A DNA stretch of 32,059 bases from an uncultured Bacteroidales bacterium. GTDB lineage: Bacteria; Bacteroidota; Bacteroidia; Bacteroidales; Muribaculaceae. Location of the stretch: assembly GCA_947072905.1 (NCBI GenBank), contig CAMTKF010000032.1, positions 1-32,059 of the forward strand, in the 5' to 3' direction. Within the stretch, counting starts at the first letter, position 1, and every line of letters starts with the position of its first letter. The notes under the pieces were generated by a model, which was not told the origin of the DNA, made no database searches, and saw only the letters and a list, made by a program, of their open reading frames with translations. The position numbers and the translations under genes were made by a program. This document shows, piece by piece, positions 14,512 to 29,572 of the stretch.

Positions 14512-16475
14512 GAGACGAGTGGTACTTTAACCAAATTTGTTTCTGAACATACTTTCATACATCCTTCTAAAGAGATTGTCTTATCAAAAGAAAGGTCTTC
14601 ATACGATTCATTAAAGACAGAATGAATAAAGTGAAGATTCTTCGGGATATTGGAAGTCGCGATTGCTATCTTGTATTTGTCTATGTCTTCTTCGTAAGCA
14701 TATATTTCAGCGGACTTATTGACATAAGCATACAGCAACGCAAATACTCCATATCCACTGTTGATGATGCGGATCTTTTTCTCTTCTTGTTTATCAATAA
14801 ACTTTGCCAAATCATTAAATGAAAGCACTTTCTTACATACGGAAACAACTTTCCATCCCCGATAATCGTACTTATATGCCACAAGACTTTTGAAATAATC
14901 GCTATTCTCTGTCAAAGATACGATGTTATCATATTCAGTACGTATGATCTGCCTTAAACGGGAGGCTTGTTTTCTAAGCGGCAGCTCGGCCAAGTCTGTA
15001 CGTTTCACTACCGGAAGCCCTGCCAGTTCAATATCGCCCTTACGGAACAAAGCATCATTCTTTCTGAGATAATAACCGGCGCCATGGAGCACCAATGGCT
15101 TTATATCCAAATTCAGTTCCTGAGCAAGATAAAAAGCCCCCTGATGAAAACGTTGGATAGAGTCGTCCTCCGACCGAGTACCTTCAGGGAATACTACGAT
15201 TGAATAACCGCGCGATTTTAAATTTTGCAGTTTCGGCATTATTTCCTCTATACCTGCAGAAACCGGTAAGAATTCCGCCTCATGCACGATTTTACCAAAG
15301 AATTTATTATTCCGCATCCGGTCGTTAGTCAGAAAGACCATTTTGGGGCTGAGCGACATTATTACAGGCAAATCAATGTGTGACTGATGGTTGCTGACTA
15401 TCAGTTTGGGTTCATTGAAATCATCCTTATCAATACCGCTGATTTTTATATGGGTTGCAGGAAGCGCCCTGACAATTCTTTTGGAAATCCACTGCAACAT
15501 TCTATGAAGCCCGTATTTGGCTTTTTCATTATTTCGGCCGAAATTACGGACATAGAAGACGTAAGGCGTGAATAAAAAGCACGACCAGAACAGAAAAAAC
15601 ATCAAGCCGTAAATTGATCTGAATAAACGACCAATTGTAATTGACGCATCTCTTTGCTTGCCTTTACTTCTCGTAAACCGCTTAAATTCGCCGGAGAAAA
15701 ATCTTTTATCCCGAAATCCGCTCCACAATCGGGCCGGTATTCCGTATATGATTGCAGCAAAACACAATATAGTGTTGAGGATACTGATTCTCGTGAAGTC
15801 GAGAGCCGGTTTAAAATGTGACACACGTTCTAATTGTGGCGGATAATACACCTGTATGGGAACCGATACAATCTTCACTCCATTCCAAGCGGCAAAAACA
15901 AGCAGCTCCAGTTCGGCTTCATATCGGCTTGTCAATATTGATAGTCCATACAACTTTTTCAGCGGATATACCCTATAACCGGTCTGAGTATCTTTGAGCC
16001 TTTTACCGGTCTGAACGGTGAACCAAAAATTGGAAAATTTATTGGCGAATGAGCTTTTGCCGTTAATATCGACCTTAGACAAATCGCGCTCTCCTACAAC
16101 AAGGCTTCCCGGATTTTCAATGATTGCTTTAACCATGACCGGTATATCCGAGGCGTAGTGCTGTCCGTCAGAGTCCATGGTGACTGCGTATTCAAAACCC
16201 TTTGAGATTGCATATTTGAACCCTTCTTTGAGCGCACCGCCTTTACCTTTGTTTTTCGCATAGCTCACGACATGTATTTTACCTTTGAACCGGTCTAATA
16301 TATCGGCAGTGTTATCTGTACTCCCGTCGTTAACCACAATTACGTTGGAAGTATATTTGAGAACATCAGAGAGGACACAAGACAAAGTTCCGGCATTGTT
16401 GTATGTCGGAATCAAAACGCATATTCCATGATTTTGAATTGCTGTCTTTACCTTATCCTCTTCAATGTTATTCAT
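14508..16475 (-). CDS. GT2 glycosyltransferase fused to lysophospholipid acyltransferase and Rossmann-like tail
   Basis: A 655-residue bifunctional fusion, the counterpart of ApeJ-type proteins. Residues 17-245 are a GT2 domain of the DPM1/dolichyl-phosphate hexosyltransferase kind: IPTYNNAGTL, VVNDGSTDNT and metal-binding DSDG (101-104). A membrane segment follows at about 285-309. Residues 355-470 are a PlsC-like acyltransferase with HX4D (His363, Asp368) and FPEGTR (429-434). Residues about 530-630 form a degenerate methyltransferase-like Rossmann segment (IRIINSGYGVFALLYA) that resembles the tail of the MMPL fusion. It overlaps the upstream dehydratase by 8 bases. It probably adds a sugar and an acyl chain to anchor the polyene; donor and acceptor are unknown. 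Confidence 0.92.
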   Translation of the reverse strand: MNNIEEDKVKTAIQNHGICVLIPTYNNAGTLSCVLSDVLKYTSNVIVVNDGSTDNTADILDRFKGKIHVVSYAKNKGKGGALKEGFKYAISKGFEYAVTMDSDGQHYASDIPVMVKAIIENPGSLVVGERDLSKVDINGKSSFANKFSNFWFTVQTGKRLKDTQTGYRVYPLKKLYGLSILTSRYEAELELLVFAAWNGVKIVSVPIQVYYPPQLERVSHFKPALDFTRISILNTILCFAAIIYGIPARLWSGFRDKRFFSGEFKRFTRSKGKQRDASITIGRLFRSIYGLMFFLFWSCFLFTPYVFYVRNFGRNNEKAKYGLHRMLQWISKRIVRALPATHIKISGIDKDDFNEPKLIVSNHQSHIDLPVIMSLSPKMVFLTNDRMRNNKFFGKIVHEAEFLPVSAGIEEIMPKLQNLKSRGYSIVVFPEGTRSEDDSIQRFHQGAFYLAQELNLDIKPLVLHGAGYYLRKNDALFRKGDIELAGLPVVKRTDLAELPLRKQASRLRQIIRTEYDNIVSLTENSDYFKSLVAYKYDYRGWKVVSVCKKVLSFNDLAKFIDKQEEKKIRIINSGYGVFALLYAYVNKSAEIYAYEEDIDKYKIAIATSNIPKNLHFIHSVFNESYEDLSFDKTISLEGCMKVCSETNLVKVPLVS

Positions 16476-16839
16476 ATTTCGCGTATATTAATGACAGTTT
16501 TGCATACACGGTCGATTCGTCAGAAAAGATAGCCGAAACCTTAATCCTGTCCTCCGGCAATTCAGTAAGTTTTTGGAATTGACAGCTGCAAGAAATCGTA
16601 TTGACAGGATTAATGACAGAGAGGAATTTTGCATTTACAAGCTCCTTAAGAGAGAGAGGTAAATCCAAAATCTCTTTCAATAACTCTGTAGCAATTTGAA
16701 TTATGCACACTCCCGGGGTAATAGGTTGCTCGGGAAAGTGCGCCTTGTAAATTGCACACTCTCTCAGCAACTCAATCTGAGCAATTTGGGAATCTCGATT
16801 GATTCCGATGATTTTATATAAACTATTCTTCAGTTCCAT
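16468..16839 (-). CDS. FabZ/ApeP-like hot-dog dehydratase with His but no acidic partner
   Basis: Small hot-dog protein (123 residues) of the 3-hydroxyacyl-ACP dehydratase family, expected to remove water in each polyene extension cycle. The FabZ motif is clear: HFPEQPITPGV, with catalytic His34. The acidic residue that FabZ carries 14 positions later is Gln48 here (CIIQIATEL in place of LIIEAMAQ). FabZ sites form across a dimer, His from one chain and Glu/Asp from the other, so this chain may need a partner; the second hot-dog protein at 22821-23261 has the Glu and lacks the His. It overlaps the secreted protein upstream by 17 bases and the GT fusion downstream by 8. Confidence 0.85.
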   Translation of the reverse strand: MELKNSLYKIIGINRDSQIAQIELLRECAIYKAHFPEQPITPGVCIIQIATELLKEILDLPLSLKELVNAKFLSVINPVNTISCSCQFQKLTELPEDRIKVSAIFSDESTVYAKLSLIYAKYE

Positions 16840-17290
16840 TTTGCTCTTGTATATGCGAGAATGAATAGGTAATCTTTCTTTTGGAATTAGTTACAGTCAC
16901 GTTTCCGTCAGACATGGAAACAATGTAGTTTTTATCATCTTTTGCCGGCACATCATACAGGATATGAAGGCAATATCTGATATCTTGTTTCAACACTCGT
17001 TTGATATACCACTTATTCAGGAATCCTATGACATTTTCAAGCTTGATCTTATGTGAATGCTTATCGTAAATGAATGATATTGCAGTTATACCGAATTCAT
17101 TTACCATTGTTCCTAAGATTGCATCATCCATGTCTTTTGTTATGAAAATGCCCGAGAGATGTCCTTTTTCCATGGCAATATCAAACATACATCTCTCGGT
17201 CAGAGGTGTTTCCACTTCCGACATCCCGTTTTGGGCGTTAACGCCGATGAATGACAGTAATAAGCTAAGGAATAGCAAACAAATTCGCAT
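16823..17290 (-). CDS. Small secreted protein of the polyene cluster, possibly DUF3261-like
   Basis: A 155-residue protein with a signal peptide (MRICLLFLSLLLSFIGVNA, then QNG). No lipobox Cys follows the signal, so it is likely periplasmic rather than a lipoprotein. The middle (GIFITKDMDDAILGTMVNEFG, then AISFIYD) alternates like beta strands and is reminiscent of the DUF3261 proteins found beside LolA-like carriers in proteobacterial aryl polyene clusters; I cannot prove homology by eye. It lies between LolA-like and dehydratase genes and overlaps both (26 and 17 bases). A role in carrying or receiving the lipid in the periplasm is inferred from position. Confidence 0.78.
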   Translation of the reverse strand: MRICLLFLSLLLSFIGVNAQNGMSEVETPLTERCMFDIAMEKGHLSGIFITKDMDDAILGTMVNEFGITAISFIYDKHSHKIKLENVIGFLNKWYIKRVLKQDIRYCLHILYDVPAKDDKNYIVSMSDGNVTVTNSKRKITYSFSHIQEQNGTEE

Positions 17291-17903
17291 TGAGAGTCTT
17301 ATTGGTTGAGATGTCTGAGAATTTTATATTGGTCTTGTCCTTGTTCTTTTCTACTATGTTTAGCTCCGAAATCATATTATTATTCTTGTTGAAAAACATT
17401 TCGATTTTAGCAAACATCTGTTTCAATTCCTTTTTCTTCGGAACAAGAGTTATCAGCCATGAAGTCTGAGCATCCTCGACATTTACAGTAAAATCAGATG
17501 TATTAGACAAGGCCTTGCCAGTCACTGTATTCATCATGATACGGGCAACCTCTTTGAAAACCTTGTTGGTGTTGGTATCTATTACATCCTTCTTTGAATT
17601 GTTGCCGACATACACCTTGGTTCCGTTGAAAATAAACAGGTACTTATAAGGTGAGGTATATTCCCATCTCAATTTGCCCGGTTGGGAATAATACATATTC
17701 CCTTCAGAGACCATTTTGTCGCTCAGCAAGGATATATGTTTTGTCTGTACGAATGAACAGCTCATGGATTTGAGCCCTGAGGCCGTTGCGTTTATTTTTT
17801 TTATGACATCCTGCTTTTGTGCCGGAGTCAATGAATAAGCCGGCAAAGCTGTCAAGCAGCATAGCAAAAGGCTCATCATTATAGTGCATATTGATTTCTT
17901 CAT
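17265..17903 (-). CDS. LolA-like periplasmic carrier
   Basis: Outer-membrane lipoprotein carrier family, 212 residues. I place the start at ATG 17903, two bases after the stop of the small membrane protein; it begins a signal peptide (MKKSICTIMMSLLLCCL, cut after PAYS). The mature part shows the LolA pattern: a Phe-Gln start to strand one (SMSCSFVQTKHISLL), then GKLRWEYTSPYKYLFIFNG, a common hallmark of the family. Aryl polyene clusters often carry their own LolA homologue, thought to ferry the polyene lipid to the outer membrane. No LolB partner is seen; the small secreted protein encoded next, overlapping by 26 bases, could take that place. Confidence 0.9.
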   Translation of the reverse strand: MKKSICTIMMSLLLCCLTALPAYSLTPAQKQDVIKKINATASGLKSMSCSFVQTKHISLLSDKMVSEGNMYYSQPGKLRWEYTSPYKYLFIFNGTKVYVGNNSKKDVIDTNTNKVFKEVARIMMNTVTGKALSNTSDFTVNVEDAQTSWLITLVPKKKELKQMFAKIEMFFNKNNNMISELNIVEKNKDKTNIKFSDISTNKTLNANLFAIP

Positions 17904-17905
17904 AT

Positions 17906-18259
17906 TTATTTCGCTACAAATACACAACCTAACATTATTAAAGCCACTCCAAACCATCTGTTCCATGCAACGGTTTCGTGCAGGAAAACGACGGCAAAAA
18001 CCAGAGCAAATACATAAGCAAGGCTCGCCATAGGGCAGGCCATACTCAAGGGAAAATGCTTTAAGATGTACATCCATAAGATGGATGCTCCACCAAAAAG
18101 TATTCCGCATAGCAGAAACCACCAATTGGTGAGTAAGTCCAGCCAAAAGGCTGAGGTCCATGAAAACACGGGCATTTTTGCAAGAGCCAACTTAAGTGTA
18201 AGCTGACCTGTTGAAAGCAATATGCTCTGTATTATGGAAAGTCCTAATAACTGCCACAT
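17906..18259 (-). CDS. Four-helix SMR/EamA-type membrane protein (ArnE/ArnF size)
   Basis: A 117-residue integral membrane protein with four hydrophobic segments (about 3-24, 37-62, 70-92 and 98-116). The layout matches small drug/metabolite transporter proteins that work as dimers, such as SMR pumps and the ArnE/ArnF flippase for undecaprenyl-linked aminoarabinose. The motif LSMACPMASLAYVFALVFA and the following HETVAWNRWFGVALIMLG are typical of the superfamily. It sits between the chain-length-factor-like gene (1-base gap) and the LolA gene (2-base gap). A flippase for a polyene or lipid-sugar intermediate is a reasonable guess; the substrate is not visible. Confidence 0.85.
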   Translation of the reverse strand: MWQLLGLSIIQSILLSTGQLTLKLALAKMPVFSWTSAFWLDLLTNWWFLLCGILFGGASILWMYILKHFPLSMACPMASLAYVFALVFAVVFLHETVAWNRWFGVALIMLGCVFVAK

Positions 18260-18260
18260 A

Positions 18261-19265
18261 TCAAACTGCTTTTAGACGAATTATTGTCCAAGTGGAATCC
18301 TCCGTCTGGTTAACAATGGTGAGTCCGCTTATTTTATCAGTGAGATTATCATTACCCCTCCATAGCATAAAAGGCGGAATCGTTTGACGCTCAATGATTC
18401 TCGCTGCCGCATAAAATCCGGCTGCCGATGATGAGAAGTTATCACCGAATATATTCTTGTATTGCAGGCAAACGGGTTTAAAACTTAATTCTGCCAACAA
18501 TTCAAGATATGTATTATCATTGATTTCAACATCGTTGACACCCAGCAAAATCATCTTGTCTTCGTTCGCGTTGAGCTTGGATGCCACTTCATCTATATCA
18601 GCGCCGTGAAGAATACAGACCGATGCAACTTCACAAATTGCGTTGGAGGAGTCAGACGTTATAACAGCCGACATGGAGGTTTCAGTCAACACGCGATACT
18701 CAGGGTGAATACGTTCAAACATTAGTGCCGAAAATGGTGTATTCTCATCGTGTGAGCCAATCAGGGCATTTCTGATTGCACCTAATTTCAATTGAACGAA
18801 ACCATCAAGCAAAGCCGACTCAAAAGATATCCCTTCATGCGAATACGTATTGTTGTATCCATGACATTTCAGCACTATACCAATCAGTGAACCGATTGTG
18901 TTGTGAGTGGATTGCATGAACAGTGATGGCTTCAGGCAATTCTCACCATAAGTTGCCATGTCAATAAGGAACTTTTCCGAATTCTCCATACACCCCATAC
19001 CGGTACCGGTGATTATGGCATTGGGATCGTGAATACCGGCCTCGTTCAGAGCTGTCAATGACGTGCAGACCGTACGTTTGAGTATTCTACTCATTCGTCT
19101 GGCCTCGGAAGGAACTATAAATTCTTTGCTATTGGGTTCTTGTGCACGGACGTATGCAGATTCAAACGGGCATGGTTCAGCCATCCACTCATCAGAGAGC
19201 GGCTTCTGGCATGACACCAGTGCCATTGACCTGACATAGCATTTTTTATCCGATGGTTCCTTCAT
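18261..19265 (-). CDS. Cys-less ketosynthase partner (chain-length-factor-like, ApeC type)
   Basis: Thiolase-fold protein of 334 residues in the beta-ketoacyl synthase family that lacks the active-site cysteine. The nucleophile region reads YSHEGISFESALLDG (141-155) where active enzymes have TACSSSAN, and the two catalytic histidine motifs are not recognisable. The preceding segment QSTHNTIGSLIGIVL is typical of these short partners. It overlaps the intact ketosynthase gene by 20 bases (19246-19265), which fits an obligate KS/CLF heterodimer of the ApeO:ApeC kind that sets polyene length. The C-terminal half is shorter and more divergent than in FabF. Confidence 0.87.
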   Translation of the reverse strand: MKEPSDKKCYVRSMALVSCQKPLSDEWMAEPCPFESAYVRAQEPNSKEFIVPSEARRMSRILKRTVCTSLTALNEAGIHDPNAIITGTGMGCMENSEKFLIDMATYGENCLKPSLFMQSTHNTIGSLIGIVLKCHGYNNTYSHEGISFESALLDGFVQLKLGAIRNALIGSHDENTPFSALMFERIHPEYRVLTETSMSAVITSDSSNAICEVASVCILHGADIDEVASKLNANEDKMILLGVNDVEINDNTYLELLAELSFKPVCLQYKNIFGDNFSSSAAGFYAAARIIERQTIPPFMLWRGNDNLTDKISGLTIVNQTEDSTWTIIRLKAV

Positions 19266-20463
19266 GTTCTGAAAATATTAAGGATGAGTCGTTTCCGCCA
19301 AAGCCAAAAGAGTTATTCATGACATTTTTGGTTGAGCAATCTCTTTTCGTTTCAGTCAATGGAGCTATATCGTCTTTTAGAGACATGCTTACTCCTATAC
19401 TTTTGGGTCTTACACCATTAGCGATAGAAAGAAGGCAAATCACCGTCTCTATTGAACCGGAAGCACTTGTAGTATGCCCCGTGAATGGCTTGGTGGAAGA
19501 AAAGTCGGGCAACTCAGCACCCCATACACGTTCCATTGCGGCAAGTTCGCAGATATCGTTGTTGGGAGTCCCGGTGCCATGAGTATTCACATAGTCAATT
19601 TCATCCGGACTCAGGTGCGCCATATCCAAGGCTTTACGCATTGCAAGATAGGCTCCGTCACCATTTTCGGATGTAGCAGTCTGATGGAATGCGTCGCATG
19701 AATTGCCGTAGCCGATTAATTCGGCCAAAACCCTCGCTCCGCGACTCTTTACAGAATCGGCACTTTCCAATACAATGTAGGCCGCTCCCTCGCCCAAATT
19801 TATACCGGCTCTATCCCGGTCAAAGGGGCGACAAGTCGCCTTATCGAGTATCATGAGTGAGTTAAACCCATTAAGATGGAACTTGGACAAGGCTTCTGAA
19901 CCACCGACAACGGCGATATCAACAATACCGGCCTTGATTAAGTTGGCACCTAAGATAATGGCATTTGCGGCTGATGAACATGCAGTGGAAGGTGTGGTCA
20001 CGATCTGAAATTTGCCGAGACTGTCGGCTATCAGATTTGAAGAGTATCCGCAATCGTTATATTTAAGTTCTATACAATCCGGAGTATCAGCTTTAGCATC
20101 AAACACCGACTTGAAGTGGCGTTCAGTTTTATCCATACCTCCCACAGTAGTTCCGCTTATAAAAGCGGCCTTACGGTAGTCTGACTCTTTTAACTGCGCA
20201 TCTTCGACAGCTTCTTTAGCTGCAAAGATGCCAAGCAGCACAGTCCTTAATTCACTTACAGGATATGAGACGCCAAGAGCATGAGACATATCGGCATTGC
20301 TCATTTTAACTTCTCCCACAGGCAGGTAAGAATGCTCTGACTCCAAATAAGCAATGGGCATGACTCCACTTTCTTCGTTCATAATAGAACGAAGAGTGGC
20401 TTCTGTTCCAACTCCTATGGCCGAAATAATGCCGGCACCTGTCACATACACCTTTTGCCTCAT
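19246..20463 (-). CDS. Beta-ketoacyl-ACP synthase (ApeO-like, condensing partner)
   Basis: Elongating ketosynthase of 405 residues, FabF-like. The full triad is present: Cys162 in STACSSAAN, His295 in NTHGTGTP and His330 in KPFTGHTTSASG. A C-terminal NSFGFGGNDSSLIF motif completes the fold. It should condense malonyl-ACP onto the growing aryl polyene chain. It is encoded one base after the ACP gene and overlaps the Cys-less partner by 20 bases, suggesting co-assembly of the heterodimer during translation. Which of the three intact ketosynthases does the first condensation on the aryl starter cannot be told from sequence. Confidence 0.93.
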   Translation of the reverse strand: MRQKVYVTGAGIISAIGVGTEATLRSIMNEESGVMPIAYLESEHSYLPVGEVKMSNADMSHALGVSYPVSELRTVLLGIFAAKEAVEDAQLKESDYRKAAFISGTTVGGMDKTERHFKSVFDAKADTPDCIELKYNDCGYSSNLIADSLGKFQIVTTPSTACSSAANAIILGANLIKAGIVDIAVVGGSEALSKFHLNGFNSLMILDKATCRPFDRDRAGINLGEGAAYIVLESADSVKSRGARVLAELIGYGNSCDAFHQTATSENGDGAYLAMRKALDMAHLSPDEIDYVNTHGTGTPNNDICELAAMERVWGAELPDFSSTKPFTGHTTSASGSIETVICLLSIANGVRPKSIGVSMSLKDDIAPLTETKRDCSTKNVMNNSFGFGGNDSSLIFSEHEGTIG

Positions 20464-20464
20464 A

Positions 20465-20722
20465 CTATTTCTTCCGGTTTTTGGAAACGTAATCGGCTAT
20501 TGATGATACAGACTTGAAGATAGCTTTGCCCTCGGCCGGATTGGTTAACTTTATGCCGTATTCACGCTCAAGCAGAACGATGAGTTCCAAAGCATCAATA
20601 GAGTCAAGGCCAAGGCCCTCACCAAACAGAGGTGCATCAGTATCAATGTCGCTCACAGTCATGTCCTCAAGGTTCAAAACCTCGATGATTTGTTTTTTCA
20701 GTTGGTCAATAAGGTTGTCCAT
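20465..20722 (-). CDS. Acyl carrier protein (first of two)
   Basis: ACP of 85 residues with the phosphopantetheine site at Ser41 in GLDSIDALEL. It carries the growing chain as a thioester. The helix II sequence DALELIVLLEREYGIKL is acidic as expected for docking to ketosynthases. It lies immediately upstream of the intact KS and 16 bases after the half-ketosynthase gene. The second ACP of the cluster (24166-24411) has a different surface, so the two may divide starter loading and elongation as proposed for ApeE and ApeF. No phosphopantetheinyl transferase is encoded in the window. Confidence 0.94.
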   Translation of the reverse strand: MDNLIDQLKKQIIEVLNLEDMTVSDIDTDAPLFGEGLGLDSIDALELIVLLEREYGIKLTNPAEGKAIFKSVSSIADYVSKNRKK

Positions 20723-20738
20723 ATTGTTTTCTTGTTAT

Positions 20739-21269
20739 TTAATTTTTCATCAGTTTAAAAGAGGCAAGATAGTCATTCTCAGTCTTATAGTCCACCCATC
20801 CATACAGAATCATCGAAGGCGATGAAGTAAGGACAGTGTTGCGGACAATGGATTCCATATAACTTTCGTCGTATTCATCCGTAACATAAAACGACGTCTC
20901 ACCAAATATCTTGTGTCGTATTGCTATTTCTCCGGTGACAATGTTTGCCAATGTATATACAAACAATGCCGGACTGGGAAAGTAGTTTTCCGGATCTATG
21001 ATGGTATTCTCATAATTTCGGTCTGTTATCAGGGAGCTGCTCTCATTGAAAAGCACTATGGCGCAATCTTCCTTTTCTTCAATAGAGAAATCACGTAGCA
21101 GCAATTCCGCAGCTATAAAACCAAGTTTGCAGAGAGAATCCATCTTGAAAAATTTGGGATAATTCCCAACATATTCCCGATACAGCTCCGTGATACCCTT
21201 GCTTGAAATCAAAGTTCCATTTAAAAATACGGATTCAGGCGATATTTTTATTTCAGATATTATATTCAT
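20739..21269 (-). CDS. Stand-alone half ketosynthase (N-terminal thiolase-fold fragment)
   Basis: A 176-residue protein resembling only the N-terminal half of a beta-ketoacyl synthase. The segment PSPALFVYTLANIVTGEIAIRH followed by KIFGETSFYV matches the strand-helix region just before the nucleophile of KS proteins, but the chain ends without the Cys or either His motif. It is not a frameshifted remnant: start (ATGA overlap at 21266-21269) and stop are clean, and no remaining KS half follows in another frame before the ACP gene. It may be a scaffolding or gating partner of one of the ketosynthases. No enzyme activity can be assigned. Confidence 0.8.
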   Translation of the reverse strand: MNIISEIKISPESVFLNGTLISSKGITELYREYVGNYPKFFKMDSLCKLGFIAAELLLRDFSIEEKEDCAIVLFNESSSLITDRNYENTIIDPENYFPSPALFVYTLANIVTGEIAIRHKIFGETSFYVTDEYDESYMESIVRNTVLTSSPSMILYGWVDYKTENDYLASFKLMKN

Positions 21270-22402
21270 TCAATACCTCCTTTCCTGTAAGCTATACCGG
21301 CATTAGAACCTCCAAAACCCGATAGGATTTTAATAAAGGCTTTCTTTACGGTTTCTTTCTTTTGGTTAGAGAGTTTAAGAGTATAGGTGGTCCCCTGCAC
21401 CTCATATCCACGAGTCGGCAGAACCACTGAATTGTCAACGGCTTTCATCGACAATATTGTTTCAATGATTCCGGCGGCTCCAAGAGTATGTCCGTAGAAA
21501 CCTTTTAATCCATTTACGGGTGTTTCATCGAGTTCTGCCCTATGAATCGCAATCGACTCCATTTCATCATTGTATGCGGTGGCGGTTCCATGCGCGTTAA
21601 TAAAAGCAAGTTCTGATCTGTCAACTGATTTAAGAAGGTCAATTAAGACTCGATAAGAACCTTCGCCAGTCCTTGACGGCCCGGATATATGATTGGCATC
21701 ATTATGTATGGAACTTCCTGCATACTGCCACGCTTCGGATATGGGATTCTCGGTACGTTCAAGAATTATGGTGCCGGCCGCTTCGCCAAGGTTAAGCCCC
21801 GAACGGTTCTTGTCGTATGGCTTGCATGCGTCTGCACTCAAAGCCTTGAATGATTGGAACCCGGAAACGATAAATTTGGAAAGAACGTCGCAGCCTATGA
21901 CAATGGCATATCTGTATCTGCCGCTCAATAATTCTCTCACGGCTGCTATCTGAGCGCATACGCCGGAAATGCAGGCATTTGAAACAACAACAGGTTTATT
22001 GGGGTTGGCAAAATATCGAGATATTCTATTTGCTGAATAAGCGAGATAACTGCGCTTATCCATTCTGTCTTCCGAAAGATACTCCACGTTTCCTTTTGTG
22101 GTAGAGATTACAAAAATCACATCCGGATTGGCCGGATTGATTCCTGTATTTTCTAAAGCTTGTAAGGCTGAATAAACACAGAGTTGCTCAAGAAAAGATA
22201 AATCCGCGGAATCAGTGATGCTTTCAGCAAGTATTTTTGATAATCTTTCGCGGTCAAATAAAGAGCCACAAAATGCTTTCGGCAAACCAAAAACATTTTG
22301 GTGAACAGCAAGCTTGGACTCACCGGCAAGAATGGAGTTGAAGTTCTCGTCAGTAGTAAGCCCAAGAGGGGAAAGGATATTGTCGGCTATCTTAACAATC
22401 AT
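21266..22402 (-). CDS. Beta-ketoacyl synthase (short, ApeR-like)
   Basis: Ketosynthase of 378 residues. I start at ATG 22402 (MIVKIADNILSPLG), which overlaps the thioesterase stop as ATGA; a longer frame would intrude into that gene. The triad is intact: Cys144 in SNACISGV, His271 in NAHGTATAYND and His305 in KGFYGHTLGAAG. The N-terminus is shorter than FabF and lacks the usual VVxTGxG opening, as in the divergent KS of aryl polyene clusters. Together with the half ketosynthase whose start overlaps its stop, it may form a second condensing unit, for example for the first extension of the aryl starter. Confidence 0.9.
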   Translation of the reverse strand: MIVKIADNILSPLGLTTDENFNSILAGESKLAVHQNVFGLPKAFCGSLFDRERLSKILAESITDSADLSFLEQLCVYSALQALENTGINPANPDVIFVISTTKGNVEYLSEDRMDKRSYLAYSANRISRYFANPNKPVVVSNACISGVCAQIAAVRELLSGRYRYAIVIGCDVLSKFIVSGFQSFKALSADACKPYDKNRSGLNLGEAAGTIILERTENPISEAWQYAGSSIHNDANHISGPSRTGEGSYRVLIDLLKSVDRSELAFINAHGTATAYNDEMESIAIHRAELDETPVNGLKGFYGHTLGAAGIIETILSMKAVDNSVVLPTRGYEVQGTTYTLKLSNQKKETVKKAFIKILSGFGGSNAGIAYRKGGIE

Positions 22403-22824
22403 AATACCTCCCATTGTTTTTTCCAATTCTGATAGAACTCCGGGTTCTCCCATACCAGCTGATAATTCTTATCCATAAAGACTTGTACAGATTTACCCTC
22501 GGCATACACCGTTCCGTCTTTCTCGTCAATGATTTTGTATTCAAAAACTATCTTGGCCGATTCAGTAGGAATGTATGTTATGACTATCACCGGACTCATT
22601 TCATAGACAAGCGGTTTCTTGTACTTAAACGACAGCTCAACCAACGGGGCGTAATAACCATTGGAGCATATAGTCATATATCCGAGTCCATATTCCTTGC
22701 CGAACTCTTCACGCGCATCCTCGAAATAAAGCGGGTATGAGCCATGCCATACGACATTCATCGAGTCAACTTCGCTGAATCGTATCTCCAACTTCTTTTT
22801 TGCTGTCAGTTTTTTCATGCTCAT
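22399..22824 (-). CDS. Hot-dog thioesterase, 4-hydroxybenzoyl-CoA thioesterase type
   Basis: Acyl-CoA/ACP thioesterase of 141 residues. The 4HBT motif reads RFSEVDSMNVVWHGSYPLYF; Asp20 is the expected catalytic residue and WHGSY matches the usual YHANY. It could release finished chains or clear stalled thioesters, the role proposed for ApeK-type proteins. It overlaps the neighbours on both sides by four bases (22821-22824 and 22399-22402). An in-frame ATG at 22818 is an alternative start that removes two residues only. Confidence 0.92.
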   Translation of the reverse strand: MSMKKLTAKKKLEIRFSEVDSMNVVWHGSYPLYFEDAREEFGKEYGLGYMTICSNGYYAPLVELSFKYKKPLVYEMSPVIVITYIPTESAKIVFEYKIIDEKDGTVYAEGKSVQVFMDKNYQLVWENPEFYQNWKKQWEVL

Positions 22825-23261
22825 TCCTTTTTAGATTCAAGTTCGCTCAGCGCAATCTTCATTTCCGCCTCCGCAATTATTTCATCTCCAATACATACCG
22901 TAGCTTTTACCAATGTCATTCCGAAAATTTCTTCGATGGTGAGAATTGTAGTTTGAACAGTTTCTCCGACTCTTGGACAACGATATATTTTCAGTCCTTT
23001 GACAGCACCTATAAAGCCTAACTGAATTCCCTTTTTCAGAATGTACTTGTTTATATACCCTATTCTTGCGGCACAAGTCTGGGCGATGTTCTCAATCACA
23101 CCTGCCGGTGTGAAAAATCCATCCTCAGAGAAAATATTGTCTGAGACCACCGGGGTTTCGGTAACAGTCTTTTCCATGTCAAAATGGATAAGCTTACCCA
23201 CCATGACAAATGGCTCCTGCTGGGGGAGCAGATCGTGTATGTTGATTTCAGTCAATTCCAT
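22821..23261 (-). CDS. FabZ/ApeI-like hot-dog dehydratase with Glu but no catalytic His
   Basis: Hot-dog protein of 146 residues. I start at ATG 23261, one base after the stop of the acyltransferase gene; the longer frame only reads back through that gene. The opening LLPQQEPFVMVGKL is the FabZ-like substrate-lid region. The central helix keeps the acidic residue (Glu57 in VIENIAQT), but the HFPxxPxxPG motif is lost: the equivalent stretch is NIFSEDGFFTPAG, with no His. This is the mirror image of the dehydratase at 16468-16839. A heterodimer of the two would have one complete active site. It could alternatively use a different base; sequence alone cannot tell. Confidence 0.87.
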   Translation of the reverse strand: MELTEINIHDLLPQQEPFVMVGKLIHFDMEKTVTETPVVSDNIFSEDGFFTPAGVIENIAQTCAARIGYINKYILKKGIQLGFIGAVKGLKIYRCPRVGETVQTTILTIEEIFGMTLVKATVCIGDEIIAEAEMKIALSELESKKE

Positions 23262-24165: not shown

Positions 24166-24411
24166 TTATTTGTTTACTTTTGATTGTATGTAGTCATAGA
24201 AGTCATTGAGAGTCACAACTCCGGCCATCTCTTCGGGCTTGATTTTAAATCCGAAGTTTTTCTCAACAATTACTACTATATCAACGAAGTCGAGGCTGTC
24301 GATTCCTACATCTTCTTTCAATCGAGCCTCGGGAGCAATTTTTTCCTCATCAACTTCCAGATCATCAATAAGGAAGTCGCGTACTTTATCTTCTATTTCT
24401 TTGCGTTCCAT
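24166..24411 (-). CDS. Acyl carrier protein (second of two)
   Basis: ACP of 81 residues with the attachment site Ser39 in GIDSLDFVDI. It is strongly acidic in helices I and II. It lies between the methyltransferase (30-base gap upstream) and the LpxL-like acyltransferase (12 bases downstream), so it may present the acyl group to one of them. Compared with the 85-residue ACP at 20465-20722 it has GIDSLD in place of GLDSID and a different third helix, supporting separate duties. Confidence 0.94.
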   Translation of the reverse strand: MERKEIEDKVRDFLIDDLEVDEEKIAPEARLKEDVGIDSLDFVDIVVIVEKNFGFKIKPEEMAGVVTLNDFYDYIQSKVNK

Positions 24412-24441: not shown

Positions 24442-25542
24442 CTATTTTATTAGTTTGCAGACCAATATGCTGTGTCCTTGACCCAGATTATCGTGGATGG
24501 TTTCTATTACTAATCCAGCCTCATTGACCAGGCGTACCATGTCTTCTGAATGGTACATCTTGCTATTCCCATTGGCAATAGCGGTGAAGTAAAGACTCGT
24601 AAGTGTTAAACATAAGGCTGCCGGTTCAAATTTTTGCCTGTCCCAAAGGGTTTCCATGATAAACAGACGTGATTCATCATTCATCACTTTGGCAGCCCTT
24701 TTGAGGATATTTACAATTTGTTCCTCGCTGAAGCAATCAAGAAATTGGCTCATCCATATCGCTTCAAATGTACGGTCGGACGGCATTTCAACCGATTCGT
24801 CAAGAAGGTTGACACCCAGACCGTCGATTCTTTCTTCCCCGCAGTTGCCCTTGATGTTTTCCTTCATCATAGCTATTTGCTGGGGTAAGTCAAGAATAGT
24901 TACATTCACATCCTTGTCGTAATCTACGCAACGAAGTGCCCAACGGCCGGTATTGCCGCCTACATCAAGAAGCGTTTTCGGTCTGTTTTTGAAAACAATT
25001 TCAAGGGCCTGGTCAAAAGAGTTGTCAGAATAGAAATGGTCAAAATCAAACCAACTCTTCTGTATATGTTTCGGAAGAGATGAAAGACCTTCATAAACCG
25101 TAGGCCAATCTCCCAGAGATTTCAACCCTTCAGGCTTACCTTCTTTCAAAGATTCCTCAAGATTGAACCAACCGAGATAATTGACATCGTGGTTGAAGTT
25201 TACATTGACTCTGGTTGCAGGGTCGTTGATCAAAAACCAACCGGTCTTTGATATCGTAAACTTATCTGTCTCAGGATTTACAAGTACCAAACCAATGGTA
25301 AGAGAGGCTTCCAAGAGACATTTAGACGCATACTCCGAAATTCCTGTTGCCTTGGCAACCTCTTGAATCGTCAACCCGTTATCTGAATCACGGAGTAAAT
25401 CCATTATCCCCCATTTCAGCATGATACGTGCAGTCTGGAAAATAACGGGACCAAAAGCAATAAACTCTGCAAGGCGCTGAGCCTCACGAGCATTAATATT
25501 GTCCTTGGTATATCTTCTTTGTAAATCGCGAGATAAGTTCAT
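24442..25542 (-). CDS. SAM-dependent methyltransferase with winged-helix dimerisation domain
   Basis: Class I methyltransferase of 366 residues, built like acetylserotonin O-methyltransferases. Residues about 20-110 are the winged-helix dimerisation domain (LTIQEVAKATGISEYASKCLL). The SAM-binding motif is LLDVGGNTG (191-199). The usual catalytic His of the O-methyltransferases (LHDW) is replaced: the motif reads FLDCFSEEQ, with Asp269 in its place. That fits C-methylation of an activated phenol ring, and aryl polyene heads are known to carry a ring methyl next to a hydroxyl in E. coli; for this organism it is inference. It follows the secreted 171-residue protein by 7 bases. Confidence 0.9.
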   Translation of the reverse strand: MNLSRDLQRRYTKDNINAREAQRLAEFIAFGPVIFQTARIMLKWGIMDLLRDSDNGLTIQEVAKATGISEYASKCLLEASLTIGLVLVNPETDKFTISKTGWFLINDPATRVNVNFNHDVNYLGWFNLEESLKEGKPEGLKSLGDWPTVYEGLSSLPKHIQKSWFDFDHFYSDNSFDQALEIVFKNRPKTLLDVGGNTGRWALRCVDYDKDVNVTILDLPQQIAMMKENIKGNCGEERIDGLGVNLLDESVEMPSDRTFEAIWMSQFLDCFSEEQIVNILKRAAKVMNDESRLFIMETLWDRQKFEPAALCLTLTSLYFTAIANGNSKMYHSEDMVRLVNEAGLVIETIHDNLGQGHSILVCKLIK

Positions 25543-25549
25543 TCTTGTT

Positions 25550-26065
25550 TTATTTGCAATTGAGTTGCTTAACTATGAGTTTACCAAGACTTTGTCCGAT
25601 AGACTTGAACTGATCACGGAAAGCAATCTTGTCATTGTTGTCAGCATCATCTGATTTGAAAGACAGAATCGCTACAGGGTCTTCCTGACCTTTTTTCTTA
25701 AGAAGAATCTCGCCCGTAATGTCGCCACCTTTTGAAATGGTAGCTACTTCCATTTCAAAGTAGTATTCAGAGTCTGTATTGGTGTCTTTGTCGGAAAGAC
25801 GAACTCCGTATTCACCGGTGCGGGAATTTACCTTCTGGATGAGATAGTTGAGAGATTCTCTTTCCCAATCGTTGTTTCTCACGGCTTTGTCAAGGAAATC
25901 GACAAGGGTTCCGGCCTTGCTGTAAACAGCATTGTCCCAATTTACAATAAACGGAACTGTCTTTCCTCCCTTGAGGTCTGCAAGAGAACCTGTCACGAGC
26001 TTGGTTCCTGCGAATGCAGGTATTGCCATAATGGCAATTAAAAGTGATAAAATCAGTTTTTTCAT
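25550..26065 (-). CDS. Small secreted protein of unknown function
   Basis: A 171-residue exported protein I do not recognise. It has a textbook signal peptide (MKKLILSLLIAIMAIPAFA, cut before GTK) and no lipobox. The mature part is predominantly polar and strand-like, with EYYFEMEVATISKGGDITGEILLKK resembling a beta-rich domain, and it ends in a Cys two residues from the C-terminus. It overlaps the ketosynthase stop by ATGA (26062-26065), so it belongs to the operon. A periplasmic role in handling the polyene lipid is suggested only by location. Confidence 0.8.
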   Translation of the reverse strand: MKKLILSLLIAIMAIPAFAGTKLVTGSLADLKGGKTVPFIVNWDNAVYSKAGTLVDFLDKAVRNNDWERESLNYLIQKVNSRTGEYGVRLSDKDTNTDSEYYFEMEVATISKGGDITGEILLKKKGQEDPVAILSFKSDDADNNDKIAFRDQFKSIGQSLGKLIVKQLNCK

Positions 26066-27303
26066 ACTTTGTATGTATTTGGTTTTTTAATAACGAGGGC
26101 ACTGTTTGTTCCACCAAAACCAAAGGAATTGGAGAGAGCAATCTCAATAGGCATATCAACAGTTGTTTTAGCCAGATTGAGATTTGCAGCATGTTCGCTC
26201 GGCTCATCAAGATTGATATTCGGAGCCACAAAGTTGTTCTGCATCATCAAGATACTGTAAACAGCTTCGCTTGCTCCGGCCATCCAACACTCATGGCCGG
26301 TCATGGATTTTGTCGAGCTTATAAGGGCTTTCTTGCCTGAGAAAAGTCTGTTTAAAGCAATAGCCTCATAATCATCGCCCTGGGGTGTGGAGGTTGCATG
26401 AGCATTTACATAGTCTACGTCGTCAGCTGAAATACCGGCATCGGCAAGCGCACGTTTCATAGCTCTTTCAGATCCTTCATCACTTGGCTGAGATATGCCG
26501 CCTCCATTTGATGAAAATCCATATCCTATAACTTCTGCGAGTATGTTTGCACCTCTGGCTACTGCATGTTCATAGTCTTCAAGCACTAATGCTGCGGCAC
26601 CTCCGCTGGGAATCAAGCCATCTCTGTCTTTATCAAATGGGCGGGATGCTTTGGTCGGTTCATCCATTCGTGTTGAGAATGTGCCAAGGGCATCAAATGA
26701 TGACATGGAATAGTAATTGGTTTCTTGTGCTCCGCCAACCAATACCATATCCTGAAGCCCTTGTTTAATCATCATATATCCAAGGCCGATAGAATGGGAA
26801 CCGCTTGCACAGGCAGCACTTATTGTCATGTTGATGCCCTTCAGGTGGAAAATTGTGCTGAGGTTCATATTGACCGTTGAGTTCATTGACTGAAAAATGG
26901 AGCCGGAACCAACCAACGCTGAATCCTTTTTTTCTTTCATGATCTCATGGGCTTCGATAACAGCCTTGGCCGAAGAGTCGTTACCGAAAATGATACCGAC
27001 TTCATTATCTTTCAGATATTCTTCTGTCACACAGGCCTCATCAAAAGCCTCTTTGGCAGCCATGAAAGCATATTCGGCTTCTTCTGACATGCCAACCCGC
27101 TGACGCCGGTCAAGTACGCCCTTAAGCTTTGGCCTTTCCACTATACCTGTCAGCGCTGACTGATAACCGTAGTCAAGGCGGGCTTGTTCAACTCCGATAC
27201 CTGACTTACCGTTGTATAAGGAGTCCTTGACTTCTTCTTTATTCTTTCCGATGCATGACCAAATGCCCATGCCGGTTACTACTACTCGTCTACTCATATC
27301 CAT
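26062..27303 (-). CDS. Beta-ketoacyl-ACP synthase, FabB/FabF type
   Basis: Ketosynthase of 413 residues, the most FabB/F-like of the cluster. The triad is Cys165 in SAACASGSH, His302 in NAHATSTPQGD and His337 in KSMTGHECW. NSFGFGGTNSALVI closes the fold. In-frame ATGs at 27303 and 27297 both fit; the first adds Met-Asp. It lies 20 bases after the ketoreductase gene. It could extend the polyene or supply fatty acyl chains for the acyltransferases; family membership does not decide this. Confidence 0.93.
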   Translation of the reverse strand: MDMSRRVVVTGMGIWSCIGKNKEEVKDSLYNGKSGIGVEQARLDYGYQSALTGIVERPKLKGVLDRRQRVGMSEEAEYAFMAAKEAFDEACVTEEYLKDNEVGIIFGNDSSAKAVIEAHEIMKEKKDSALVGSGSIFQSMNSTVNMNLSTIFHLKGINMTISAACASGSHSIGLGYMMIKQGLQDMVLVGGAQETNYYSMSSFDALGTFSTRMDEPTKASRPFDKDRDGLIPSGGAAALVLEDYEHAVARGANILAEVIGYGFSSNGGGISQPSDEGSERAMKRALADAGISADDVDYVNAHATSTPQGDDYEAIALNRLFSGKKALISSTKSMTGHECWMAGASEAVYSILMMQNNFVAPNINLDEPSEHAANLNLAKTTVDMPIEIALSNSFGFGGTNSALVIKKPNTYKV

Positions 27304-27323: not shown

Positions 27324-28052
27324 TCATGAATAAAGGCCTCCGTTTATTGAAATGACTTCTCCGGTTATATAGGATGCGTCTTTAGAGGCGAGGAAAGCGA
27401 CCAAAGCAGCCACTTCTTCCGGCTCTCCGAATCGACCGAGCGGAACTGTCTTCTTCAGACTGTCTTCATCCAGATCCTTTGTCATGTCGGACTTGATAAA
27501 GCCCGGAGCCACAGCATTTACCGTAACCTTTCGCGGAGCCACCTCTTGTGCAAGAGCTTTTGTAGCGCCAATCAACGCGGCTTTTGCTGCAGAATAGTTG
27601 GCCTGCCCCGGCAATCCTTTGAGTCCTGAGAGCGAAGCAATGTTAATCACACGACCGAAACGCTTTGTCAACATTCCCTTCAGAACACGACGGGTAACGT
27701 AGAAGAACCCATCGAGAGTTGTATTTATGACTTTATGCCATTGTTCTGTCTGCATAAAAATGAGAAGCGCATCATCTCTGATTCCTGCATTATTTACAAG
27801 AACCGTTATCCTGTCGTCAGGATGAGCATCCTCCCATTGTTCCAATGCAGAGTCAACAGATTCTTCGTAACCTACATCAAAAGGAAGAAGTTCGGCAATG
27901 CCGCCATTGGCACGAATTTCTTCCGCCACACTTTTTGCGGCTTCTTCATTTGATCGGAAATTGATGATTATTCCAAGTTCAGGCGAAGCCAATCTTTTGC
28001 AAATAGCGGCACCCAAACCACGCGAGCCGCCTGTAACCAATGCGTAGTTCAT
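27324..28052 (-). CDS. fabG: 3-oxoacyl-ACP reductase (FabG type)
   Basis: Short-chain dehydrogenase of 242 residues that reduces the 3-keto group after each condensation, using NADPH. Cofactor motif TGGSRGLG (7-14), NNAG (87-90) and catalytic Ser140, Tyr153 and Lys157 (YSAAK) are all present, as is the PGFIKSDM segment. It is the only ketoreductase in the cluster, so it would act in every cycle, the role of ApeQ. Its start overlaps the ammonia-lyase stop as ATGA (28049-28052). The gene symbol marks the family; the housekeeping fatty acid FabG is probably elsewhere. Confidence 0.93.
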   Translation of the reverse strand: MNYALVTGGSRGLGAAICKRLASPELGIIINFRSNEEAAKSVAEEIRANGGIAELLPFDVGYEESVDSALEQWEDAHPDDRITVLVNNAGIRDDALLIFMQTEQWHKVINTTLDGFFYVTRRVLKGMLTKRFGRVINIASLSGLKGLPGQANYSAAKAALIGATKALAQEVAPRKVTVNAVAPGFIKSDMTKDLDEDSLKKTVPLGRFGEPEEVAALVAFLASKDASYITGEVISINGGLYS

Positions 28053-29572
28053 GCGTTCAAATAATTTATGATATTAGTACGAAGATATTTTTCAGTCGCT
28101 GCAACCTCCTCATAGAACGGACTGTCTTCAATAAAAACAGGGCATATAGAGCGTATTGCATCGTACTGCTCCTTGGTCTTCGGAGAAAGTTTGTCGGCGA
28201 TTTTCAGACAGTCGGTAGCCTGAGCAAGAGCAATATAAAGGATAGACATTACTTGATAAGCATTGTCAATAACCTTTTTGCACAGCAAAGCGCTGTTGGT
28301 GCCCATGCTCACGATATCCTGGTTATCGTTGTTGTTTGGAATACTGTGTACATAGTTAGGCATAGCCATAGTCTGGCATTCTGCAGTTGTGGATGTCGCA
28401 GTAAACTGACAAGCCTGCATACCATAGTTCAGCCCCAGAGTTCCCATATTGAGGAATGGTGGCAAGATACCGTTGATACGGTCATGGAAAAGATAATTAA
28501 GCTGACGTTCGGCAGTCATGGCTAATCTGACCATGGCAATTTTCACTTTGTCGGCTTCCAAAGAAATATAATCGCCATGGAAGTTACCTCCATGATATAT
28601 ATTCTTGGATTTGTAATCTACAATAGGATTATCGCAAGCTGAGTTAACCTCATTTTGGAGTATTTCAGAAGCGTTTTTAAGAGTATCGTAGATTGGTCCG
28701 TAAATCTGAGGGATGCAACGCAGGGAATAATATGCCTGAACCTTATGTTCAAAGTAGGTATCCTTGTTCTTGGCCGGATCATACAATTCGTGCTCACGCT
28801 TCTGAAGATGCTTGCTGCCTTTGCTTACCTCTCTCAACCAGCGAGCTATCACCTGTTGTCCGGGCTGGCGGCGGCATTCGTTCTCTTCTACTGACATATA
28901 GTCATCAAAAGAATCGGCAATCTCATTAATCCATGCACCGGCTATAGTCGCGTATTTAAGCAGATTCTCTGCATAATACTGATTGACAATTGACACACCG
29001 GTCATTACCGAAGTACCGTTAGTTACCGACAAGCCCTCGCGAACAAAAATACCCATAGGGGTAAGATGTTCCTCTTCCATTACATCAGCAGTAGGCCTCC
29101 ATTCACCCTTGAAGTGAACTTTGCCTTCTCCTATAAGGCAAAGAGCTATGTGAGCAAGTTGAACAAGGTCGCCGCTTGCGCCCACGCTTCCATGTTGAGG
29201 AATAAAGGGATATATGCCGCGGTTTACAAATTCTTGCAAAAGCAAGATTACCGACGGATGGATTCCGGAACGAGCCTGTAGAAATGTGCCAATACGAGCA
29301 ATCATAGCCGACTTCACTTCTATATCAGAGAGTGGCTCGCCCACGCCGGTAGCATGACTCCGGATGATGTTATATTGAAGTTCCTTCAAATGATCATCTC
29401 TCACCCGCCATTGAGCCATCGGACCAAAGCCCGTATTGATGCCATATATTACTTTGTCCTTTACAAACTCTTTAAGGAAGTCATGGCACAAGGCTACATT
29501 AACCATTTCTTCCTCGGGAATGGATAATGACTCACCTTTATATAATATGTCATAAATGACTGATAATTCCAT
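28049..29572 (-). CDS. Aromatic amino acid ammonia-lyase (MIO enzyme, HAL/TAL/PAL family)
   Basis: MIO-dependent lyase of 507 residues that removes ammonia from an aromatic amino acid, giving the aryl acrylic acid starter of the polyene. The MIO triad Ala132-Ser133-Gly134 lies in HGSVGASGD, and the lid Tyr43 in YGINTGFG. Specificity signals are mixed. Residues Ser72-His73 match the S-H pair of histidine ammonia-lyases, while the Glu of HutH (NQEDHVSM) is Gln418 here (DNQDIVSMG), as in phenylalanine and tyrosine enzymes. With no urocanase or other hut genes nearby and fabG overlapping, a tyrosine or phenylalanine substrate is favoured. It is the first gene of the operon. Confidence 0.9.
   Translation of the reverse strand: MELSVIYDILYKGESLSIPEEEMVNVALCHDFLKEFVKDKVIYGINTGFGPMAQWRVRDDHLKELQYNIIRSHATGVGEPLSDIEVKSAMIARIGTFLQARSGIHPSVILLLQEFVNRGIYPFIPQHGSVGASGDLVQLAHIALCLIGEGKVHFKGEWRPTADVMEEEHLTPMGIFVREGLSVTNGTSVMTGVSIVNQYYAENLLKYATIAGAWINEIADSFDDYMSVEENECRRQPGQQVIARWLREVSKGSKHLQKREHELYDPAKNKDTYFEHKVQAYYSLRCIPQIYGPIYDTLKNASEILQNEVNSACDNPIVDYKSKNIYHGGNFHGDYISLEADKVKIAMVRLAMTAERQLNYLFHDRINGILPPFLNMGTLGLNYGMQACQFTATSTTAECQTMAMPNYVHSIPNNNDNQDIVSMGTNSALLCKKVIDNAYQVMSILYIALAQATDCLKIADKLSPKTKEQYDAIRSICPVFIEDSPFYEEVAATEKYLRTNIINYLNA

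Follow-up and report, generated by a model that had tools for sequence, protein, structure and literature searches.

How does a bacterium form the double bonds of a polyene if neither of its two candidate dehydratases has a complete active site? This question is raised by a 32,059-nucleotide stretch of DNA from an uncultured Bacteroidales bacterium of the Muribaculaceae (contig CAMTKF010000032.1), which we refer to as the window. A gene cluster of the flexirubin type, with all of its genes on the minus strand, holds two genes for hotdog proteins, which we call DH1 and DH2. Comparisons with their homologues suggest that DH1 and DH2 are best read as a heterodimer with one composite active site, and we consider this very probable.

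The first-pass annotation had proposed that DH1 has the catalytic histidine but a glutamine at the position of the acid, while DH2 has the acid but no histidine. Indeed, both open reading frames are present on the minus strand, with these residues. In DH1, His34 lies in HFPEQPITPGV, and 14 residues later, where FabZ has glutamate, there is Gln48 (codon CAA). Glu52 (16684-16686) is one helical turn past Gln48, which gives QxxxE in DH1 versus ExxxQ in FabZ. DH2, read from the ATG at 23261, has Glu57 in VIENIAQT, and its stretch NIFSEDGFF, which is equivalent to the histidine region of FabZ, contains no histidine; in a by-eye alignment, Asp47 sits at the position of the FabZ histidine. Thus neither protein has the histidine and the glutamate on the same chain, as a homomeric FabZ would. 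The genome also encodes, at another site (L002), a FabZ-like sequence that carries the two catalytic residues in order, HFPQEPVMPGVLMVEAMAQ. Both proteins score below the cut-offs of the FabZ models TIGR01750 and NF000582 (155.15 and 113), with 20.2 and 20.1 bits for DH1 and 27 and 32.5 bits for DH2 (E = 7e-8 for DH2 against NF000582). DH1 also scores under the cut-off of the Pfam model for the ApeI dehydratase (PF22818; 20.4 bits, cut-off 28.5), and DH2 had no match in Pfam. The predicted structure of the window's DH1 has a predicted local distance difference test score of 95.6 and a predicted template modelling score (pTM) of 0.89, and its best matches among solved structures are FabZ chains (1u1z_C, E = 1.3e-6).

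We counted residues across homologues, taking each distinct sequence once (148 DH1 and 173 DH2 sequences). (For 27 DH1 and 30 DH2 rows from one family, f3, residues were read via a motif that itself contains the catalytic residue, and all of these rows matched it.) His34 of DH1 is present in all 148 sequences, and Glu57 and Gln61 of DH2 are each present in all 173. In contrast, an acid is missing from position 48 of DH1 in 131 of the 148 sequences: the residue is Q in 120, E in 17, G in 3, K in 3, A in 2, R in 2, and L in 1. Glu52 is found in 142 of the 148. A histidine occurs somewhere in the loop preceding Glu57 in 26 of the 173 DH2 sequences, at no fixed position. Positions neighbouring His34 of DH1 and Glu57/Gln61 of DH2 vary while the catalytic residues are invariant, and such invariance in 148 + 173 distinct proteins rules out chance or sequencing error as the source of the split. 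Seven further DH1 proteins outside these counts (L188-L194) all keep the histidine motif and have glutamine at the acid position. Three DH1 proteins (G118_L027, L131, and L134) keep the histidine and have no acid at either 48 or 52 (Q..Q, Q..G, and Q..Q).

The two proteins also occur together. We searched profiles built from 15 DH1 sequences (A1) and from 15 DH2 sequences (A2) against 395 Bacteroidota genomes. Strong matches were set apart by a gap in the scores (DH1 at 84 bits or more and then at 47 or less; DH2 at 114 or more and then at 48 or less). Strong matches to both proteins were found in 36 genomes and to just one of them in none; FlxA was over its cut-off in 33 of these 36. Similarly, among 59 genomes from the window's own family, 8 had both and none had one alone. 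Together, the two surveys (which have genome G000 in common) yield 43 genomes with the pair and none with a single partner. In 24 of the 43 (L043, L047, L051, and others, from families f6 and f7), two tandem DH2 paralogues without the histidine (PQ type and PHR type) stand beside one DH1.

We also scanned named genomes via DH2. Among the best 80 of 561 loci, nearly all from Bacteroidales by title, DH1 lies within the locus in 71, and for the other 9 the genome as a whole yields a strong match to DH1. (Two of the loci, L113 and L121, appear to repeat genomes G407 and G427.) Two loci, L083 and L102, come from a single genome bin with two DH2 and one strong DH1, which leaves the DH2 of L102 with no DH1 partner of its own. 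In f3, 73 of 123 genomes match a DH2-DH1 query. We rechecked 8 of these for DH1, including 7 that were picked because they had a single match to the DH2 half only, and found a strong match in 7 of the 8; the genome without one is 60% complete. At one locus, an ordinary FabZ-like dehydratase with both histidine and glutamate (L021:4361-4822) is found along with the split pair.

Furthermore, the pair can be found outside of the full cluster. In Prevotella lacticifex, an overlapping DH2-DH1 gene pair is an orphan (L129:9959-10797): none of the other window genes is within 10 kb of it, and no FlxA was found in the genome. One genome bin (L177) encodes a natural DH2-DH1 fusion. The model of this fusion (pTM 0.88) aligns across both halves with the double hotdogs of polyketide-synthase dehydratases, and acyl thioesterases are also among its best structural matches. 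Two side-by-side hotdogs on one chain are predicted for this fusion only, as the window's proteins are separate. A Prevotella cluster (L112) lacks the genes that separate DH2 from DH1 in the window; its genome has no FlxA and has a second DH2-like gene on another contig. In six f3 genomes (L189-L194), DH1 is fused with a downstream glycosyltransferase.

We propose that DH1 and DH2 would form a heterodimeric double-hotdog dehydratase, acting on 3-hydroxyacyl chains attached to the acyl carrier protein, that would introduce the double bonds into an aryl polyene of the flexirubin type. Its working site would combine His34 of DH1 with Glu57 of DH2 (along with Gln61) across the dimer interface. In the second, pseudo-equivalent site, the Asp/Asn47 region of DH2 would lie opposite Gln48/Glu52 of DH1, and this site should be dead because the catalytic pair is missing there. 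As expected from a dead second site, the acid in DH1 comes and goes while the glutamate of DH2 stays. The heterodimer is well supported by the co-occurrence of the two proteins, the conservation of their residues, the persistence of the pair in genomes that have reduced or lost the rest of the cluster, the gene overlap, the natural fusion, and the confident model of that fusion. We infer that DH1 and DH2 pair in this organism; that they act as a dehydratase, and what each residue does, would follow by analogy to FabA/FabZ and ApeI/ApeP.

Several points qualify this proposal. Co-occurrence is necessary for it but not sufficient, because shared membership in a cluster would by itself produce co-occurrence. 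The DH2 profile matches FabZ chains better than it matches the ApeP chain. The conserved Glu52 of DH1 (142 of 148) is not required everywhere as an acid of DH1, because both positions, 48 and 52, are non-acidic in three DH1 proteins; it may instead help to form the dimer or the dead site. Finally, the first-pass annotation had proposed an obligate heterodimer with one live and one dead site, had expected the losses in DH1 and DH2 to always occur together, and had named independent losses as evidence against itself. The obligate heterodimer is well supported by the comparative evidence and by the precedent of ApeI/ApeP (PDB 6qsr), but the strict coupling is not borne out: in the alignment of homologues, 17 of the 148 distinct DH1 proteins, mostly from f3, retain Glu48. 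This rules out strict co-loss and, by the criterion that the annotation had set, counts partly against it. The annotation's idea that dehydration might be tied to a single face of the polyene-making complex is more speculative.

These exceptions are most common in f3, where we read the residues at the 30 best loci of the DH2-DH1 query scan. (DH2 and DH1 are often neighbours in this family.) DH2 has its glutamate at all 30 loci. The stretches read are short, and DH1 was found in 27 of them, always with its histidine; position 48 is Glu in 13, Gln in 11, Arg in 2, and Gly in 1. In a quick and poorly resolved tree of 150 DH1 rows, position 48 switches from acid to non-acid or back at least 7 times, although well-supported branches force only 2 of these switches. 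The 17 exceptions fit an order of loss in which the histidine of DH2 would have gone first, followed by drift of the redundant acid of DH1, so that one composite site remains. More broadly, we think it likely that the flexirubin-type dehydratases became a fully reciprocal split enzyme: from an ApeI/ApeP-like start, in which one chain was without its histidine, the useless acid of the other chain was then lost repeatedly in different lineages, until neither chain could work alone. f3 would then be a record of how the heteromer was locked in, with the fused double hotdog and the two-gene unit that outlived its cluster in P. lacticifex as endpoints. With its switching between glutamate and glutamine, f3 offers natural variants for studying how, and at what stage, a heteromer with one dead site turns obligatory.

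The conservation of Glu52 could also be taken to mean that DH1 is a self-sufficient homodimer whose acid has shifted by one helical turn, from 48 to 52, with QxxxE replacing ExxxQ, and that DH2 has some other job. However, the three DH1 proteins without an acid at either position (of 148) still keep their histidine, and for this reason we reject Glu52 as DH1's own general acid. Together with the invariance of Glu57 and Gln61 in DH2, the presence of DH2 alongside DH1 in every genome of the pair surveys that has either one, and the existence of a natural fusion, this makes a DH1 homodimer highly improbable.

Another explanation is that DH2 is a hotdog thioesterase with a lone glutamate, similar to 4HBT proteins, or a non-catalytic partner, so that DH1 would dehydrate alone or on a DH2 scaffold, as in HadAB. 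Some classes of hotdog thioesterases do have a single catalytic aspartate or glutamate at the position of the FabZ glutamate (described in a section of PMC2698920), both catalytic residues of HadAB come from one subunit (sections of PMC4491049), and, as mentioned above, thioesterases are among the structural matches of the fusion. But DH2 does match a FabZ model (NF000582, albeit below its cut-off), its profile reaches FabZ and ApeP chains, a separate 4HBT thioesterase adjoins it in the cluster, and most DH1 proteins have no acid at position 48 with which to work alone. We consider this explanation very unlikely. Last, DH1 and DH2 might be dead relics or regulators, with a housekeeping FabZ dehydrating the polyene intermediates. 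The genome does contain a candidate, as the FabZ-like sequence L002, with both residues, lies within a 465-amino-acid frame. However, relics would not retain exactly the catalytic residues, as DH1 and DH2 do while the neighbouring positions vary, so this is extremely improbable.

The rest of the cluster fits its classification as flexirubin-type: its FlxA-type and FlxJ-type proteins both score over their NCBIfam cut-offs, flexirubin LolB2 has a weak match in the window, below its cut-off, and ketosynthases and a thioesterase are identified by Pfam matches. Names for the carrier proteins and for LolA-like and MMPL-like genes were assigned from sequence. Muribaculum caecicola (L066) has an identical gene order, with 88% identity for FlxA and 75% identity for DH2, so the source of the window is probably related to this organism. 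The proteins encoded at 20739-21269 (176 amino acids) and 25550-26065 (171 amino acids) have no match in Pfam and weak NCBIfam matches, below cut-off; the former has a 64% identical counterpart in M. caecicola.

Table 1. Genes of the flexirubin-type cluster in the window.
Feature	Coordinates	Strand	Remarks
DH1, ApeI-like hotdog protein, 123 amino acids	16468..16839	-	His34 kept; Gln48 at acid position; conserved Glu52
DH2, FabZ/ApeP-like hotdog protein, 146 amino acids	22821..23261	-	Glu57 and Gln61 (ExxxQ); no catalytic His
FlxA-type tyrosine ammonia-lyase, first cluster gene	28049..29572	-	NF053541 over cut-off
FabG-like ketoreductase	27324..28052	-	Named from sequence; conserved in L066, L052, L093, L055
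Ketosynthase	26062..27303	-	Named from sequence; conserved in related clusters
FlxJ-family methyltransferase	24442..25542	-	NF053543 over cut-off
Acyl carrier protein	24166..24411	-	Named from sequence
4HBT hotdog thioesterase; third hotdog protein, separate	22399..22824	-	Start overlaps DH2 stop
Ketosynthase-like protein	21266..22453	-	
Second acyl carrier protein	20465..20722	-	Named from sequence
Ketosynthase	19246..20463	-	
Shortened ketosynthase-like protein, candidate chain-length factor	18261..19265	-	

The evidence suggests that dehydration in the flexirubin pathway needs both dehydratases as one enzyme. Sections of an earlier study (PMC3992019) name FlxF and FlxS as candidate dehydratases of this pathway and make no statement about a heterodimer. 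We found no paper in the open literature that joins flexirubin, heterodimer, and dehydratase, although most subscription papers lie outside of that search.

The closest known system is ApeI/ApeP from the aryl-polyene clusters of Proteobacteria, which is described as heterodimeric with just one active site (sections of PMC8041823). We identified ApeI and ApeP of E. coli from the gene order at L065 and from the gene table of PMC8253772. In three ApeI-type sequences (E. coli ApeI, 6qsr_A, and 3esi_A), the histidine is followed 14 residues later by aspartate. E. coli ApeP has a glutamate in a FabZ-like ELMAQ, and the preceding loop has no histidine. A structure of the ApeI:ApeP complex was reportedly described in a 2019 study in J. 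Am. Chem. Soc. By profile matches, PDB 6qsr contains one ApeI-like and one ApeP-like chain (A1 versus 6qsr_A, E = 3.6e-9); 6qsr_B has the glutamate, with a histidine in the loop 8 residues before it rather than at the catalytic spacing of 14. (6qsr was not among the 50 matches listed for each fold search, which shows nothing either way.) As with ApeI/ApeP, a type II polyketide synthase (PKS) for an aryl polyene includes two unequal hotdog proteins, so that there are two different dehydratases per cluster, and the histidine is on one partner (ApeI or DH1) while the other (ApeP or DH2) has a glutamate without the catalytic histidine. In contrast to DH1, most of which have lost the acid as well, the ApeI sequences keep both residues, and only ApeP is degenerate. 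Another difference is that DH2 and DH1 are fused in one genome, while the ApeI of A. baumannii is a fusion with ApeH (sections of PMC8041823). DH2 also differs in having no Pfam match. Because DH1 does not reach the cut-off of PF22818, we would consider the pair to be a flexirubin counterpart that probably works like ApeI/ApeP, and not a member of Pfam's ApeI family. A heterodimer with a single site is thus already known, and what differs here is the loss of the second, unused acid.

More distant comparisons place the proposed enzyme among other hotdog dehydratases. FabZ and FabA share the hotdog fold and the catalytic positions with DH1 and DH2, and each site of FabA draws residues from two subunits, with FabZ dimers superposing (sections of PMC2698920); but FabZ and FabA are homo-oligomers in which each dimer has two complete sites. 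HadAB of mycobacteria, like the pair proposed here from sequence, is a double hotdog made of two different subunits and has one active site, in which HadB carries both catalytic residues and HadA binds the chain (sections of PMC4491049). HadAB and HadBC are of the hydratase 2 type, not the FabZ type, and have both residues on one subunit; DH1 and DH2 have neither this motif nor this arrangement, as their residues are split. In the dehydratase domains of type I PKS and fatty acid synthases, a pseudo-dimer has histidine in its first half and aspartate in its second. The L177 fusion aligns with such domains over both halves, and CurJ H978F and CurK D1169N, both inactive mutants, appear among the fold-search matches, but the order of the halves is reversed in the fusion and identity is 7-13% among the matches listed. 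The natural fusion is a link between stand-alone heterodimers and the dehydratase domains that type I synthases carry in fused form.
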